A DNA stretch of 50,555 bases from Verrucomicrobiota bacterium. GTDB taxonomy: Bacteria > Verrucomicrobiota > Verrucomicrobiia > Verrucomicrobiales > DEV007. The notes beneath the pieces are model-generated. The model was given only the letters and a program-made list of their open reading frames with translations. It had not been told where the DNA came from and did not search any database. Location of the stretch: positions 1 through 50,555 of the forward strand of contig DAOUQC010000030.1 of NCBI GenBank assembly GCA_030625775.1. The letters are read 5' to 3'. The translations under genes were made by a program, and so were the position numbers. Positions 35,283 through 45,198 of this stretch are shown here, piece after piece (position 1 is the stretch's first letter; each line of letters starts with the position of its first letter).

Positions 35283-35327
35283 TTGCCTCCGGCTGTCTCG
35301 TTTTAATCTCGGCTGTGGTTCTCTTTC
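35261..35327 (+). repeat. Copy of a dispersed intergenic repeat overlapping a gene start
   Basis: Read on the plus strand, 35261-35286 matches the repeat also seen at 36736 in 22 of 26 positions, and 35317-35327 holds the following GGTTCTCTTTC element after about 30 extra bases. On the minus strand the overlapping part encodes the first residues (METNKHE) and the ATG of the gene ending at 33900. Confidence 0.6.
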
Positions 35328-35362
35328 TTGATAGTTGCATGCAACCACACCATATAGTGAAC

Positions 35363-36559
35363 ATGATTTCCCCCATACGTTCAAAAGCCCGTCTCAGTTT
35401 TATCATCATAGCCCTGCTGGCACTTGTTTTTCCAATCTCCTCGCCTGCTCATGAAATACGCACAACTGCCCAGATCGCCAAGCAACTGGAGGCCGGAAAC
35501 AAGACAGTTCGCATCGTCTGCTTTGGTGACAGCATCACCGGTGTATATTATCACAGCGGCTCAGCCCGAGCCTGGACTGACATGCTGGGCATCACTCTGA
35601 AACAGGTTTATCCCAAGGCAAAACTCGAGATGATCAATGCCGGCATCAGCGGCCACACCACGATCAACGCACTGGCGCGAATCGAGAAGGATGTCATCAC
35701 CAAAAAACCGGATCTGGTGGTCATCATGTTCGGCATGAACGATGTGACCCGGGTCAAAATTGACGACTACGAAAAAAACCTGCGCAACATCACCCAACAA
35801 TGCCTCGATGCCGGAGCGGCCGTCATGCTCTGCACCCCAAACTCAGTTTACGAAAACCCCGCACGCTCAAATGAAAAACTCAACGATTACTCTGATCGTG
35901 TTCGAAGCATAGGCCATGACTCAAACCTCCCCGTCGTTGATTTTTTCAAGGACTGGAGCGAACTGCATCAAAAAAACAAAACTGCCTGGATGCTTCTCAT
36001 GAGCGAAACCATTCACCCCAACATGAACGGCCACAAGCGCTTCGCCAGACTCATCACTCAATCGCTCAGCGAAAAAAAAATCGAAGCGACAAGTATCCCT
36101 CCTGCTCCCGATCCCCTGCAAAACACCCTGAAACTTCTCCGTGCCAATCAACCAATCAAACTGGTCGCCATGCCTCCCTACGACAAAGTCATACCCGAAG
36201 CTCTGAAAAAGGAATTCCCCAATGCCAAAATTGAAGTCACCCCCTGGCCGGTGAAAAAGCAAAGCCTGGCCGAGGTCAGAAAATGGTCGCAGAAGATCCG
36301 CAAGATGTCCCCCAACCTCGTCATCATCAACGTCCCGCCGGCCACCCTCGCCCATCCCAACGATGCCGATTTCATCCGCGACTACCAGTGGATCCTCAAC
36401 AACAGCTTCCACTTCGGCAAACGCCAATGGGACGTATTGTCCTTCCTGCCAGTCAACGGGGCCCTCCCAGCCCAACGCCTTCACCTCGCACGCCAGGTTT
36501 CCTTCGGCAAAGACATCCCCCCTCTCTCCCGCCTGCCCGATGACCTGATTGCGAAGTGA
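35363..36559 (+). CDS. Secreted SGNH/GDSL hydrolase with unknown C-terminal domain
   Basis: 398 residues from ATG 35363, with a signal peptide (LSFIIIALLALVFPISSPAHE). The SGNH esterase domain runs to about residue 225: block I IVCFGDSITGVYYHSG, block II MINAGISGHTTI, block III VIMFGMNDV, and block V ETIHPNMNGHKRFA, so the Ser, Gly, Asn and His of the oxyanion hole and triad are all present. The second half (KLLRANQPIKLVAMPPYDKVIPEALKKEFPNAKIEV, WSQKIRKMSPNLVIINVPPATLAHPNDADFIRDYQWILNNSFHFGKRQWD) looks like a second Rossmann or SGNH-like unit without a triad. Substrate is likely an acetylated carbohydrate or lipid; that is family knowledge, not shown here. Confidence 0.85.
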   Translation: MISPIRSKARLSFIIIALLALVFPISSPAHEIRTTAQIAKQLEAGNKTVRIVCFGDSITGVYYHSGSARAWTDMLGITLKQVYPKAKLEMINAGISGHTTINALARIEKDVITKKPDLVVIMFGMNDVTRVKIDDYEKNLRNITQQCLDAGAAVMLCTPNSVYENPARSNEKLNDYSDRVRSIGHDSNLPVVDFFKDWSELHQKNKTAWMLLMSETIHPNMNGHKRFARLITQSLSEKKIEATSIPPAPDPLQNTLKLLRANQPIKLVAMPPYDKVIPEALKKEFPNAKIEVTPWPVKKQSLAEVRKWSQKIRKMSPNLVIINVPPATLAHPNDADFIRDYQWILNNSFHFGKRQWDVLSFLPVNGALPAQRLHLARQVSFGKDIPPLSRLPDDLIAK

Positions 36560-36591
36560 TCAATATTCAGAGTTGAGGAGCTCCTCCGACT

Positions 36592-36662
36592 GTGGAGGCA
36601 GATTTCCATATCTGCCTCCTGTAGCTTACGTCTTCCCCAGCAGATATGGAAATCTGCCCCAC
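36592..36662. repeat. Paired REP-like palindromic element, copy 1
   Basis: Left unit: GGAGGCAGAT, loop TTCCAT, ATCTGCCTCC (36594-36619), a perfect 10-bp stem headed by GTG at 36592. Right unit, inverted: GCAGAT, ATGGAA, ATCTGC then CCCAC (36640-36662). The two units face each other about 20 nt apart, and each carries the same hexanucleotide loop. The same structure occurs at 45118-45198. Confidence 0.8.
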
Positions 36663-36735
36663 TTAAACATCACTTATTTACAATCAGGAACACCATCACT
36701 TTCGTCCACCCCCCTCACCTTTCCCACTTCTCTAA

Positions 36736-36771
36736 TTCGCGTTTATTGGCGTCCATTCGCGGTTCTCTTCT
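36736..36771 (+). repeat. Dispersed 36-bp intergenic repeat, copy 1
   Basis: Begins ATTCGCGTTTATTGGCGTCC and ends CGGTTCTCTTC. It matches 41002-41037 in 32 of 36 positions and the start-overlapping copy at 35261 in part. All three copies have the same orientation. Confidence 0.7.
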
Positions 36772-36994: not shown

Positions 36995-39790
36995 TCACTT
37001 CACCGTCGTCAGAAACTCCAACAAATCCGCCACATCCTGCACCGTCAATGCCGCCTCCAATCCCTCGGGCATCAGCGACATGCCGATCCCCTTCATGCCC
37101 GCAATATCCTTTCGCGTCACTTTTTTCTCCACTCCAAATGGCTGCCGAATCGTCACCTCAGTCGAGGACTCATTGGCAATCATCCCCACCACCACTTCGC
37201 CACTTTTCAAAGTGAACGCGTAAGTCTGAAACTGCGGAGCCACTTCCTTATTTGGATCAAACAAATTTCCCAGAATCGATTCTTTACCCGCAGCAACAAA
37301 GGTCACCACATCAGGCCCCAGGACAAAACCTTTCTCCCCGTAACGGTGACAGGAAATACAAACCGCTTCATATTTCATCTGCCCCTTCTTTGCGTCACCT
37401 TTCATGTCCAACGCTTTCTGATAACGCGCGACCACCGACGCACGCGACTCCTTTTTCTCTACCGGAAATACCACTAATGCCAACTTTTTCACCCGTGCAT
37501 CCCGATGACCTCGCAACAGATCCACCTGATTCGCCGACAAATCCATCTTACCAATTTTTTTATCCTGCACCGCTTTCAAGAGACTCGTCGAACGATCCGG
37601 TCTAGCCAAAAATAAATCCATCGCCGCTGCGCGCACCTGCGGGTTCCACCCTGACCATTTTTCCACCAATACCGTTTTCAACTCCACCGCATTTCGACGC
37701 CCCAAAGCATTGAGCAAAGCCAGTTGCAATTGGGCAGAGTCCGTATCCTTCAAAGCCGACGCCAACATTGCCGACGTCTTCGATTCAGGAGAAAAAGCAC
37801 ACAACTTAACAGCTTGAATCCGGCTAACTTCCGTTGCTTTTGTATCAGCCGCAGTCGCCAATGATTTTGCAAACACCGGTTCCAACACCTTGCCCTTGTC
37901 AGCTTTGGCCAAGGAATTTTTTACACGCGCCAAGCCTGTTCCCAAATGCTCGATCAAAGCCAGGCCGGTCGCATTCTCCGAATTTTTGACTGCCACCGCC
38001 AGCACTTCCTCGATCGCTTTTTCATCATTGGTTTTGCCAACCACTTCCGCCAGTTGAGCCAAAAAGGTACCATTCGCATCCGTATCCTTCGCCAAAGCAA
38101 CAAACAAAGCACGCGCTTCCACCCCATTGCCGATCGCATTCAGTGCAGCAGCCTCCACCCACATATCACCTCGAGATTTATTCACCAAGCCAGCCAGCTC
38201 TGCAGCCTTGCCTTTGCCATCTTCCTTTGCCAGTGCCAAGGCACGATGAAATCTCCCCCCAGCCGTATCCGTATCCGGCGCCACACCCCAGCCCCCGCCC
38301 GCACGTTTGTCGCCGCGTTGCCACAACAACCGCTGGGCCGTCACACGATGCCACCCGTTGGGATGTTTCAACAAGGCCGCCAACTCATCATTAGAAGCCT
38401 TGCTTAATTTCACCGTCTTGCGGCGCTCAAAATTTTCAGGTTTTATTCGGTACACCCGCCCCTGATCGGTTCCACTGTTCAAATCGAGGAACTTCTTAAT
38501 CCCTGGCGGCAAAGACCAGGGATGCTCAATCGCCTCGCGGGACATATCGACTACATAGAGACAACCGTCCGGCCCATTCGCCGAAGCCGTTGCACGAAAC
38601 CAGTTATCAGTCGACGCCAGGAACTCCACTTCCGTTTCATCACTTGGCCGCGTTGCGATCAGGGCCGCCTCATCCTTTTTGTGCTTCACTATTTTGCGGT
38701 GCACCAGATTGCTTCCCGCGTCTCCAGTAAAAGCATTGTCTACAAAATCAGATCCCAGTGCATCGCCCGTATACATAGTGACCGCGGTTCCCCCCGTAAA
38801 GTAACCCGAGACTCGCCCTCCCCCTTCGGCGCCACCTCTCACCACACCGGCCACCCGCCAGCGAGTACGAATGATACGCCAGGGTTCGTCAGGGCTGATC
38901 CGATATACCGGGCAAGCCCCTCCATCATCAGCGATACCCACCAATGGGTTCGGCAGGGAAAAATACTTGCCCGGCTGGGTCCAGCCCTTCTCCCACATCA
39001 CAGCAATAATATGATTGCTGTTGCTGCTGACAAAACGCCGCCCCTTTGAATCAAAGCTCAAGCCATACTGAGCAGTTCCGTTTTCGGTTTGAAAATCCAA
39101 GGTTTTTGGATCGAAGGAAAAATCGCGACCATTAACCGAGATCTCTTCCGACTCGGCTTGATCAGGACGTCTTATGCTACCCCCGGTGCCCGCCGTTGCT
39201 CCCCAAATTCGATTGTCAGGCCCCCAACGCAAACTGTTGGCAAGCGCCTGCATGTTAAGCCGATCCTTGCCTTTACCAAAACCGGTGAACACCACCTTCT
39301 TGATATCCGCCACTCCATCTCCATCGGTATCCTTAAAATAAAACAGATCCGGTGTGGCGATGACAAAAACTCCCCCATCGTAACACACCGCCCCGGTCGG
39401 CCACTTCAACCCCTGCGCGTAAATTGTCGCTTTATCAAAAACTCCATCGTCGTCCTCATCCACCAGCATACGGATCCGTCCGCGATCTTCGTCACGACGC
39501 TCGGAGTATCCACGCATCTCCACCGCAAACATCCGCCCGTCCTCATCAAAATCAATCGCCACCGGATCCATCACCAAGGGCTCACTGGCAGCAAGCTCAA
39601 TCTCAAAACCCTTCTTCACCTCAAAAGTTTTCACTGCCTTTTTTGGAGAAGTCGCCGGAATCCTCGGCATATCTTTGGCATTCGCTTCCGGCCCATCCGG
39701 ATCACCTTTGTAGTCAACGGCTGATAGAGAACTGACCAAAACGGCTGATATAAAAGTTACGAAACAGAGAAGTTTTTTGTTGTTGTTCAT
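36995..39790 (-). CDS. PVC-type membrane-bound dehydrogenase / haem-binding HEAT-repeat protein
   Basis: From ATG 39790 the product is 931 residues with a signal peptide (NNNKKLLCFVTFISAVLVSSLSA). The N-terminal half is a beta-propeller dehydrogenase-like domain (GFEIELAASEPLVMDPVAIDFDEDGRMFAVEMRGYS, MLVDEDDDGVFDKATIYAQGLKWPTGAVCYDGGVFVIATPDLFYFKDTDGDGVAD with Asp-rich calcium-like loops). HEAT-like helical repeats fill about 480-800, and a C-terminal cytochrome-like domain carries CISCH with RYGEKGFVLGPDV. The remaining tail (MIANESSTEVTIRQPFGVEKKVTRKDIAGMKGIGMSLMPEGLE) is typical of the PVC family. It converges on the SGNH gene across the repeat region and diverges from the Tat amidohydrolase 94 nt away. 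Confidence 0.9.
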   Translation of the reverse strand: MNNNKKLLCFVTFISAVLVSSLSAVDYKGDPDGPEANAKDMPRIPATSPKKAVKTFEVKKGFEIELAASEPLVMDPVAIDFDEDGRMFAVEMRGYSERRDEDRGRIRMLVDEDDDGVFDKATIYAQGLKWPTGAVCYDGGVFVIATPDLFYFKDTDGDGVADIKKVVFTGFGKGKDRLNMQALANSLRWGPDNRIWGATAGTGGSIRRPDQAESEEISVNGRDFSFDPKTLDFQTENGTAQYGLSFDSKGRRFVSSNSNHIIAVMWEKGWTQPGKYFSLPNPLVGIADDGGACPVYRISPDEPWRIIRTRWRVAGVVRGGAEGGGRVSGYFTGGTAVTMYTGDALGSDFVDNAFTGDAGSNLVHRKIVKHKKDEAALIATRPSDETEVEFLASTDNWFRATASANGPDGCLYVVDMSREAIEHPWSLPPGIKKFLDLNSGTDQGRVYRIKPENFERRKTVKLSKASNDELAALLKHPNGWHRVTAQRLLWQRGDKRAGGGWGVAPDTDTAGGRFHRALALAKEDGKGKAAELAGLVNKSRGDMWVEAAALNAIGNGVEARALFVALAKDTDANGTFLAQLAEVVGKTNDEKAIEEVLAVAVKNSENATGLALIEHLGTGLARVKNSLAKADKGKVLEPVFAKSLATAADTKATEVSRIQAVKLCAFSPESKTSAMLASALKDTDSAQLQLALLNALGRRNAVELKTVLVEKWSGWNPQVRAAAMDLFLARPDRSTSLLKAVQDKKIGKMDLSANQVDLLRGHRDARVKKLALVVFPVEKKESRASVVARYQKALDMKGDAKKGQMKYEAVCISCHRYGEKGFVLGPDVVTFVAAGKESILGNLFDPNKEVAPQFQTYAFTLKSGEVVVGMIANESSTEVTIRQPFGVEKKVTRKDIAGMKGIGMSLMPEGLEAALTVQDVADLLEFLTTVK

Positions 39791-39884
39791 CACAATTGGG
39801 GATTGGTTTCTAACTGACATAGACATAAGCTGGTGATCGACAAGTTCCACTAGTTTTTCAAAATACCCTCAACACCCGCTAATC

Positions 39885-42146: not shown

Positions 42147-43495
42147 CACACTTTTGGATACACCCACGGCGCCCGGTATTCCCTGCGCAACAATCCATTC
42201 GCCTCCTCATCTCCAATAATCTCCTCTTTAGCACCGTCCCATTCAACACTGCGCCCTACCTTTAACGACAACATACCCAGCAAACTAAGATTCGTTGCCC
42301 GATGCCCGATTTCAATATCGGCGACCGGCTTCCGCCCCTGCTCGATTGCATCCAGAAAATCCTTGTACAAGGGCGGCACATTGTGACCGTCTTTTTCGTG
42401 ATCAAATTTTGGATCCTGATGAACCACTTCAGCGCCCTTTTTAACCGGATAAAAATTCCAGCCATCACGCCATCCCATGTGAAAAACCCCCTTGGTGCCG
42501 TAAAAATAACAACCGACACGTGATTTCTCCACGTCATTGCCTCCAAAACGCCGGTGCTCCCAAACCGCAGTGAACTGATCGAACTCGTAAGTCGCCACCT
42601 GGTGATCGGGCGCGTCCGTCGTCTGCTCCTTGTCGTTAAGAATCGGCTTGCCCTTAATCGGTCGTCCCCCGGTGCTGTAGATTTTTTTCGGATAAGGTTC
42701 GTCCGACCACCACAAGACCTGATCCAGCCAATGCACCCCCCAGTCTCCCAGTGTCCCGTTGGCAAAGTCGAGGAAGTTACGAAAGCCCCCCGGATGAATT
42801 CTCCGATTGAATGGCCGCATCGGCGCAGGACCACAATACATATCCCAATCCATGCCCTCTGGAATCTCACTGTTAGGCGTTGGTTTTTCCGGCCCTCCAC
42901 CACCATGGGAAAACATCCGCACCATACCGATCTGACCCGCGCCGCCATCTTTCAAAAACTTCATGCCCGAAATGTGATGCGGCCCGATCCGTCGATGCAG
43001 GCCAACCTGCACAACACGATCCGTTGCCCTCGAAGCATTCAACATTGCCCGACTCTCTTCGACTGTGTGCCCCGTTGGTTTTTCAATGAACACATGCGCA
43101 CCCGCCTGCACCGCCGCGATGCCCTGAAGTGCATGCCAGTGATCCGGTGTGGAAATGATCACCACATCGAGCTGCTCTTTTTCGAGCATCTCCCGGTAAT
43201 CTTTATACATCTTGGGAGTCGAGCCGGTCATGCCATCCACTTCATCGGCTGACACCTCCAGTGCATCCGCATCCACATCACACAGGGCCACCACTTGTGT
43301 GCGGCCCTCTTCGAGCGCCACCCGCAAAATATTCATCCCCCACCAACCGGTTCCGATCAGAGCCGTGCGGTATTTCTTACCTGATTTCTCCGCTGCTCCA
43401 TGAATCAAAGGCATTGATCCCATCGCCGCAATTGCGCCGCTAGTCGTACTGAGAAAATTTCGCCGATTCAGTTTCAATGGTTTGTCCTTTATCAT
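42146..43495 (-). CDS. Tat-exported Gfo/Idh/MocA-family oxidoreductase
   Basis: NAD(P)-dependent oxidoreductase of sugars or inositols. From ATG 43495 the product is 449 residues; the start LNRRNFLSTTSGAIAAMGSMPLI is a twin-arginine signal. The Rossmann fold is RTALIGTGWWGMNILRVALEEG (G-x-G-x-x-G), DVVIISTPDHWHALQ, and AGAHVFIEKPTGHTVEE contains the E-K-P motif. FANGTLGDWGVHWLDQVLWW supplies the catalytic Asp/His region, then GRRPVADIEIGHRATNLSLLGMLSLKVGRSVEWD. The earlier in-frame start at 43564 overlaps the PQQ gene and is less likely. It lies between a PQQ-propeller gene upstream and the AI-2E gene downstream. Confidence 0.92.
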   Translation of the reverse strand: MIKDKPLKLNRRNFLSTTSGAIAAMGSMPLIHGAAEKSGKKYRTALIGTGWWGMNILRVALEEGRTQVVALCDVDADALEVSADEVDGMTGSTPKMYKDYREMLEKEQLDVVIISTPDHWHALQGIAAVQAGAHVFIEKPTGHTVEESRAMLNASRATDRVVQVGLHRRIGPHHISGMKFLKDGGAGQIGMVRMFSHGGGGPEKPTPNSEIPEGMDWDMYCGPAPMRPFNRRIHPGGFRNFLDFANGTLGDWGVHWLDQVLWWSDEPYPKKIYSTGGRPIKGKPILNDKEQTTDAPDHQVATYEFDQFTAVWEHRRFGGNDVEKSRVGCYFYGTKGVFHMGWRDGWNFYPVKKGAEVVHQDPKFDHEKDGHNVPPLYKDFLDAIEQGRKPVADIEIGHRATNLSLLGMLSLKVGRSVEWDGAKEEIIGDEEANGLLRREYRAPWVYPKV

Positions 43496-45117: not shown

Positions 45118-45198
45118 GTAGGACAGATTTCCATATCTGTCTCATATCGACACTACAGTGGCAATCTAATCAGAGACAGATATGGAAATCTGTCCTAC
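45118..45198. repeat. Paired REP-like palindromic element, copy 2
   Basis: Arms 45118-45143 and 45173-45198 are exact 26-nt reverse complements separated by 29 nt. Each arm is itself a hairpin: GACAGAT, loop TTCCAT, ATCTGTC, headed by GTAG. Compared with copy 1 (GGCAGAT/ATCTGCC) the stem differs by a compensated base pair while the loop is unchanged. The TAG of the GTAG head is the stop codon of the metallophosphoesterase gene. Confidence 0.9.

Follow-up and report, generated by a model that had tools for sequence, protein, structure and literature searches.

The window, a 50,555-nt stretch of a Verrucomicrobiota genome, carries two inverted pairs of REP hairpins, REPIN copies 1 and 2. Copy 1 occupies positions 36592–36662, between a GDSL-lipase-like gene on the plus strand (35315–36559), which ends 32 nt before it, and a convergent DUF7133 gene on the minus strand (36995–39850) that has a weak cytochrome c match just below cut-off. 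Direct reading of the sequence confirms the inverted hairpin pair that a preliminary description had noted here, and the second one at 45118. Specifically, the left REP of copy 1 (36592–36619, plus strand; hairpin GTGGAGGCAGATTTCCATATCTGCC) comprises the foot GTGG, the core CAGATTTCCATATCTG and a 10-bp stem, GGAGGCAGAT/ATCTGCCTCC, while the right REP (36640–36662, minus strand) forms the hairpin GTGGGGCAGATTTCCATATCTGC. The two contain a perfect 19-nt inverted pair, 36597–36615/36640–36658, with a separation of 24 nt, and the spacer of the REPIN (36620–36639) is similar to those of the class 1 mini-transposons described below. Positions 36663–36713 (minus strand) correspond to a class 1 arm with a worn terminal repeat, GGGGGTGGACGAAAGTGAT, at its end (36695–36713, 3 mismatches); the opposite class 1 arm (36557–36591) is truncated at the stop codon of the upstream gene and has no recognisable terminal repeat. 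Copy 1 is the core of a worn class 1 mini-transposon with a single recognisable end, a feature that the preliminary description overlooked. Another dispersed repeat, AATTCGCGTTTATTGGCGTCCATTCGCGGTTCT, adjoins the mini-transposon at 36730–36771 and has tens of short matches in two genomes of the same genus.

Copy 2 occupies positions 45118–45198, with the feet GTAG and a perfect 26-nt inverted pair (45118–45143/45173–45198, separation 29 nt). Its left REP (45118–45142, plus strand) reads GTAGGACAGATTTCCATATCTGTCT, and the GTAG foot of its right REP (45174–45198, minus strand) overlaps the end of a minus-strand phosphoesterase-like gene and supplies the stop codon TAG (45195–45197) of that gene. 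A terminal-repeat scan found neither class's terminal repeat at copy 2 or at one further locus (L010), and a weak one-sided class 1 flag at L018, another short match in the locus alignments. Copy 2 is a bare REPIN. The stem is GGCAGAT/ATCTGCC in copy 1 and GACAGAT/ATCTGTC in copy 2, and both share the loop TTCCAT, so that the compensated pair first noted between them, a G-C to A-T change, is real.

Chance palindromes were ruled out as an explanation by window shuffles and by genome-wide counts with controls at 0. With up to 3 mismatches allowed, CAGATTTCCATATCTG matches the window five times where 0.47 matches are expected: exactly at the four REPIN arms, and with 3 mismatches at 42306. Five or more were found in 0 of 100 shuffles. 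Folded-DNA z-scores are −9.9 for copy 1 and −11.2 for copy 2. At gathering scores, Rfam gives no match anywhere in the window.

The hairpins belong to a family dispersed over the source genome (G000), which, like the two same-genus genomes G001 and G002, is a draft. The exact core occurs 24 times in G000, and 57 sites match it at up to 2 mismatches, with no match to the reversed-pattern control in either count. One of the 57 is probably counted twice, as two contig ends share sequence (141 identical bases, C29:1–141 and C89:36859–36999). GT[AG]G lies exactly six bases before the core at 48 of the 57 sites and at 23 of the 24 exact cores; the sole exception among the exact cores is the left arm of window copy 1, which reads GTGG-A-GG, with one extra base between foot and core. 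The compensated change CAAATTTCCATATTTG is present in 20 of the 57 sites (one of the 20 being the probable contig-end duplicate), and 7 inverted pairs account for 14 of the 24 exact cores. When the pattern is broadened to include the CAGAACTCCGATTCTG form and up to 1 mismatch is allowed, G000 has 78 matching places and G002 has 106, with controls at 0. Within this family, window copy 1 is an ordinary, worn member, unexceptional in itself.

Covariation of the stem was analysed on 68 distinct REPs from G000 and G002, 25-mers chosen by a regular expression that restricts some stem letters, sets no condition on pairing and does not constrain the two outer pairs; three 25-mers from five of the six records of unrelated genomes (see below) had been excluded from an initial 71. 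In this set 97.3% of stem cells are paired, against 84.0% in shuffles and 33–56% in slid structures, and 69 cells are changed on both stem sides, against 19.6 in shuffles, a value matched by 0 of 500. Double changes occur in 5 of 7 stem pairs, a weak measure, equalled in 25 of 500 shuffles, and the number of pair types is likewise a weak measure, equalled in 68 of 500. The family thus has a GTAG/GTGG foot beside a short hairpin, many dispersed copies, mainly extragenic by a heuristic gene call, and a covarying stem, as in the GTAG superfamily of REPs, and its paired members consist of two inverted REPs and a spacer that form one joint hairpin, as in REPINs. It is a REP/REPIN family, of a known kind but in an unusual nested form. 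The structured repeat family proposed in the preliminary description is borne out, and its proposed genome-wide count and RAYT search returned many copies instead of two, a conserved head and a RAYT gene; the proposed GTGG/GTAG head is conserved at most sites of the family, and among the exact cores it is displaced only in the left arm of copy 1.

The exact core is found in 2 of 76 genomes, the source genome included, the other being G002 with 20 copies; the remaining 74 relatives, among them the same-genus G001 (73% complete), have none. A GTDB scan returned 15 stretches, of which nine lie in the MAG Verrucomicrobia bacterium Dive96_bin10.62, with match positions that agree with G002. The other six, with one match each, come from Elusimicrobium, Campylobacteraceae, Gluconacetobacter, Anaerolineales and two Acetobacter, and are taken as chance or separate origin. 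As far as searched, the family is confined to one Verrucomicrobia genus. Relatives of the genes flanking copy 1 occur in both G001 and G002, in different neighbourhoods and with DNA identities of 74–86%. The fetched loci around these relatives lack a TTCCAT REP at up to 3 mismatches, so copy 1 looks specific to the source lineage.

Alignment of the loci shows that many REPINs are central in longer elements, mini-transposons of roughly 140–230 bp that are of two kinds. Class 1 elements have the ends GGGTGTGAATGAAAG and a length of 107–229 bp. Among the seven class 1 copies with both ends, four have a 9/9 target duplication (GGCTCTAGC, TCATCACAC, CCAAACACC and GAATTAACT), one has a 7/9 duplication, and the remaining two show no duplication at the called ends. 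Class 2 elements have the ends TAGTG...CTTAARATGRTGG and a length of 138–198 bp, and a scripted search found 13 copies in G000 and one in G002. A TA duplication is present at both ends in 8 of these 14, at the left end in 12 and at the right end in 10. Sister copies of class 2 are about 90–97% identical over 158–183 bp, among the 110 of 181 alignments listed. Both classes thus combine terminal inverted repeats with a target duplication, as MITEs do. Among the places listed for the three same-genus drafts, no two facing ends leave enough room between them for a transposase gene, and a class 1 consensus is unmatched in plasmid records. Three class 1 units without a REPIN (C57, C89 and C141) still have one foot, which comes from one side in two of the units and from the opposite side in the third; this resemblance to footprints of REPIN loss in Pseudomonas is suggestive, and simple hairpin deletion would look the same. 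Class 2 identity and the perfect target duplications make a recent spread of the family plausible, which is as much as can be kept of the original wording 'still-active or recently active': 'still active' is unsupported. The recent spread of mini-transposon-borne copies can be attributed to the surrounding mini-transposon.

The REP loops themselves come in two lengths, short (6 nt) or exactly 30 bases longer, with an insert of about TTGMCTCCGKCTRTCTNCGYTACRCTCCGG. All four combinations are seen in class 2: short/long (L194), long/long (L197), long/short (L200) and short/short (L206). At up to 3 mismatches, the module has 52 matches in G000, 18 in G001 and 15 in G002, with controls at 0, and no matches in three genomes of other genera. 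Examples are at L197, L200, L294 and L302 in G000 and at L221, L231 and L245 in G001 and G002. By script, 27 of its 50 distinct contexts in G000 are REP-like hairpins, 25 of them with a GT[AG][AG] foot and one (L232) apparently false; the other 23 lie elsewhere and include a REP with a broken stem (L049). The letters of the module are unmatched in the open-licence literature.

The source genome has seven Y1_Tnp genes: five paralogues of 344–381 aa, a separate gene of 348 aa on contig C77, and one RAYT on contig C10. The C10 RAYT is a 235-aa frame with HVH and YI-NP motifs, as read by eye, and sits among repeated GTAAAACGGATTGCCAATCCGTTT and GTAATACGCAATGCCATTGCGTT hairpins. The REP stems around it, GTAAAACGGATTGCCAATCCGTTT and GTAATACGCAATGCCATTGCG, are unlike the TTCCAT REP stem, and their feet mostly read GTAA. 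The locus (L064) has the form of a small REPtron, a RAYT gene amid alternating copies of two other REP types with a period of about 131 bp. The first of these types, at up to 1 mismatch, occurs at 24 places in G000, 18 in G002 and none in G001, and the TTCCAT REPs of G002 approach it as closely as GTAAAACAGATTTCCATATCTGTTT. The NCBIfam REP transposase model gives the C10 protein 65.6 bits and four other Y1 proteins 50.8–62.2 bits, all below its cut-off of 80, and so fails to set the C10 protein apart; among solved structures the C10 protein has no match beyond one at E = 0.39. Homologues of the protein are found in 31 of 47 genomes, its own included. The match in G002, a genome about as rich in REPs as G000, is incomplete: it lies at a contig end and contains one internal stop. 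The C10 RAYT region is unmatched in plasmid records.

Some RAYT loci keep company with hairpins of this design. A pair of similar GTRG hairpins lies in the flanks, about 400 nt per side, at 11 of 30 RAYT loci and is absent from those of the other 19, with gene ends approximate for 18 of the 30. As controls, 10 shuffles of each locus gave no such pair, and neither did any of 36 other Y1-family loci, the latter being fixed slices, partly missing in short loci, with one (L102) being the G002 RAYT stretch. The C10 locus itself scores 0 in this strict test because its feet read GTAA. Some RAYT homologues from other genomes of the order have neighbouring REPs that resemble the TTCCAT REP, such as GTAGGACAGGTTTCCAACCTGT (G062) and GTGGGGCGGATTTGCAATCCGCC (G027). 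G000, G001 and G002 have 39 Y1 places between them. At 37 of these, the fetched flanks (up to 1.5 kb per side, shorter near a contig end) lack any TTCCAT REP with 2 or fewer mismatches. At 3 mismatches, there are three matches near Y1 places (L027, L107 and L108), the one at L107 with a GTAG foot and 1.5 kb from the Y1 gene match. The arrangement that defines a REPtron, a RAYT flanked by the same REP, was not found for the TTCCAT stem in these flanks. Judged from sequence, hairpin design and kinship point to a RAYT; the proposal of a RAYT-mobilised REP appears right in kind, and the genome does have a RAYT gene, but one flanked by different stems, which leaves the C10 RAYT as a candidate mobiliser only.

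The C77 gene and the five paralogues were rejected as the transposase of the TTCCAT REP, which is missing from their fetched flanks. GGGGACAG or GGGGTCAG lies upstream of three of these six genes (L025, L030 and L031), and another of the loci (L028) starts at a contig end. A GGGGWSAS motif is described upstream of TIR-flanked Y1 ('TIRYT') genes in the available part of PMC3733652, and since GGGGACAG and GGGGTCAG fit it, the six genes resemble TIR-type Y1 genes more than RAYTs. Multicopy Y1 transposase-like genes of about 344–418 aa number five in G000 (C37, C110, C61, C35 and C82) and many more in G002, which has 28 Y1 places in total; some of the multicopy genes have GGGGACAG upstream.

We weighed three explanations for the dispersal of the hairpins. 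We hold with good confidence that this is a REPIN family with a GTRG foot and a covarying stem, most likely mobilised in trans by a RAYT, with mini-transposons as a second means of spread. Under this explanation, two inverted REP hairpins, each with a GTRG foot, a 7-bp covarying stem and a TCC-containing loop, would fold as a single strand, and this folded form is most probably what a RAYT (TnpA_REP, a Y1/HUH nuclease of single-stranded DNA) acts on; the best candidate enzyme would be the RAYT of C10 or a close relative since lost. In a second route of spread, the REPIN would travel as the core between the terminal repeats of two mini-transposon families, the 9-bp and TA target duplications indicating unit insertion by transposases that leave such duplications. 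Any present activity would likewise be an extrapolation from these features.

Alternatively, the hairpins could be mere palindromic centres of MITEs, spread by a terminal-repeat transposase without a RAYT, with the bare copies being MITEs with degenerated ends. The hairpins do occur in two classes of MITE that have both terminal repeats and target duplications, and no RAYT flanked by the TTCCAT stem turned up in the flanks fetched at 37 of 39 Y1 places. Yet the same core sits in two terminal-repeat families that differ in ends and in target duplications, so it is either older than they are or moves on its own; copy 2 and L010 show neither class's terminal repeat in the scan; and the GTRG feet and the likeness to RAYT-flanking REPs of the same order also speak against this explanation. 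We consider this explanation improbable.

Selection of the hairpins at gene ends, as transcription terminators or stabilisers of mRNA 3′ ends, is very improbable: 37 of 48 merged elements lie between genes, and copy 1 lies 32 nt past a stop codon between convergent genes, but intrinsic-terminator-like sites are absent at both window copies, on which ground the terminator reading was rejected, a TTCCAT hairpin is missing, with up to 3 mismatches allowed, from the fetched G001 and G002 loci of related genes (although the neighbourhoods there differ), and many copies bear terminal repeats and target duplications. A heuristic ORF call places the 48 elements in tandem (17), convergent (15) or divergent (5) intergenic positions, inside ORFs (3, two of them without a foot) or in undetermined positions (8). 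A role as terminator or stabiliser may be secondary.

Returning to the REPIN family with its overlaid mini-transposon spread, we tentatively suggest, as a possibility short of an even chance, that one REPIN core was taken up by two unrelated mini-transposon families of one genome, that single-strand (HUH) and double-strand (target-duplicating) parasites carry each other, and that the 30-base module, which would enter and leave REP loops and also occurs outside REPs, is a third and smaller mobile layer.

Target duplications are also a feature of the ERIC, NEMIS and Nezha MITEs. These three are named as bacterial MITEs in PMC3733652, as far as its text was available, and resemble the present mini-transposons in their terminal repeats and in having no coding sequence noted; the core here differs in being the REPIN of a separate, single-strand system. 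In the portions consulted of Bertels and Rainey 2011 (PMC3116915), the REPINs of Pseudomonas fluorescens SBW25 are inverted REPs with a spacer that form one long hairpin with compensatory changes, RAYT action in trans is proposed, and REPIN losses are reported in which the final few bases of one end stay behind. The present family is like them in inverted REPs, spacer, long hairpin and compensatory changes, and three class 1 units resemble the loss remnants; it is unlike them in that its cognate RAYT is only a candidate, there are tens of exact copies, and MITEs enclose many of the copies. GTAG-tagged REP families, according to the sections available of Di Nocera et al. 2013 (PMC3733652), include GTAG repeats in O. 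terrae, also of the Verrucomicrobia, and REP dimers inside longer palindromes in A. variabilis and H. neapolitanus. The present family shares with them the GTAG/GTGG foot, short stem, dimers, heterodimers and loop-length variants, a likeness to their 24 families that is by description and not by consensus sequence; the passages on the outer palindromes mention neither target duplications nor MITEs. For TnpA_REP/RAYT and REPtrons, the excerpts seen of PMC6006769 and PMC8266576 give GT[AG]G as the canonical foot, and the C10 RAYT, with REPs within 1 kb, is like the REPtrons described there; it is unlike a REPtron of the TTCCAT stem in that its flanking REPs have other stems and mostly GTAA feet.

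Thus, REPINs, GTAG repeats, heterodimers, loop-length variants and REP dimers within longer palindromes are already in print, to judge from the parts seen of these papers. A search of the open-licence literature found neither TnpAREP elements with terminal repeats and target duplications nor REPINs nested in miniature inverted-repeat elements. With the present family, the known REPs gain a representative from a genus of Verrucomicrobia, and one in which two mini-transposon families, both showing clear target duplications, carry the REPIN. It offers a natural test of REPINs moving by themselves against REPINs riding other elements, and, through the exact 30-base loop difference with stems kept, a natural test of REP loop tolerance.
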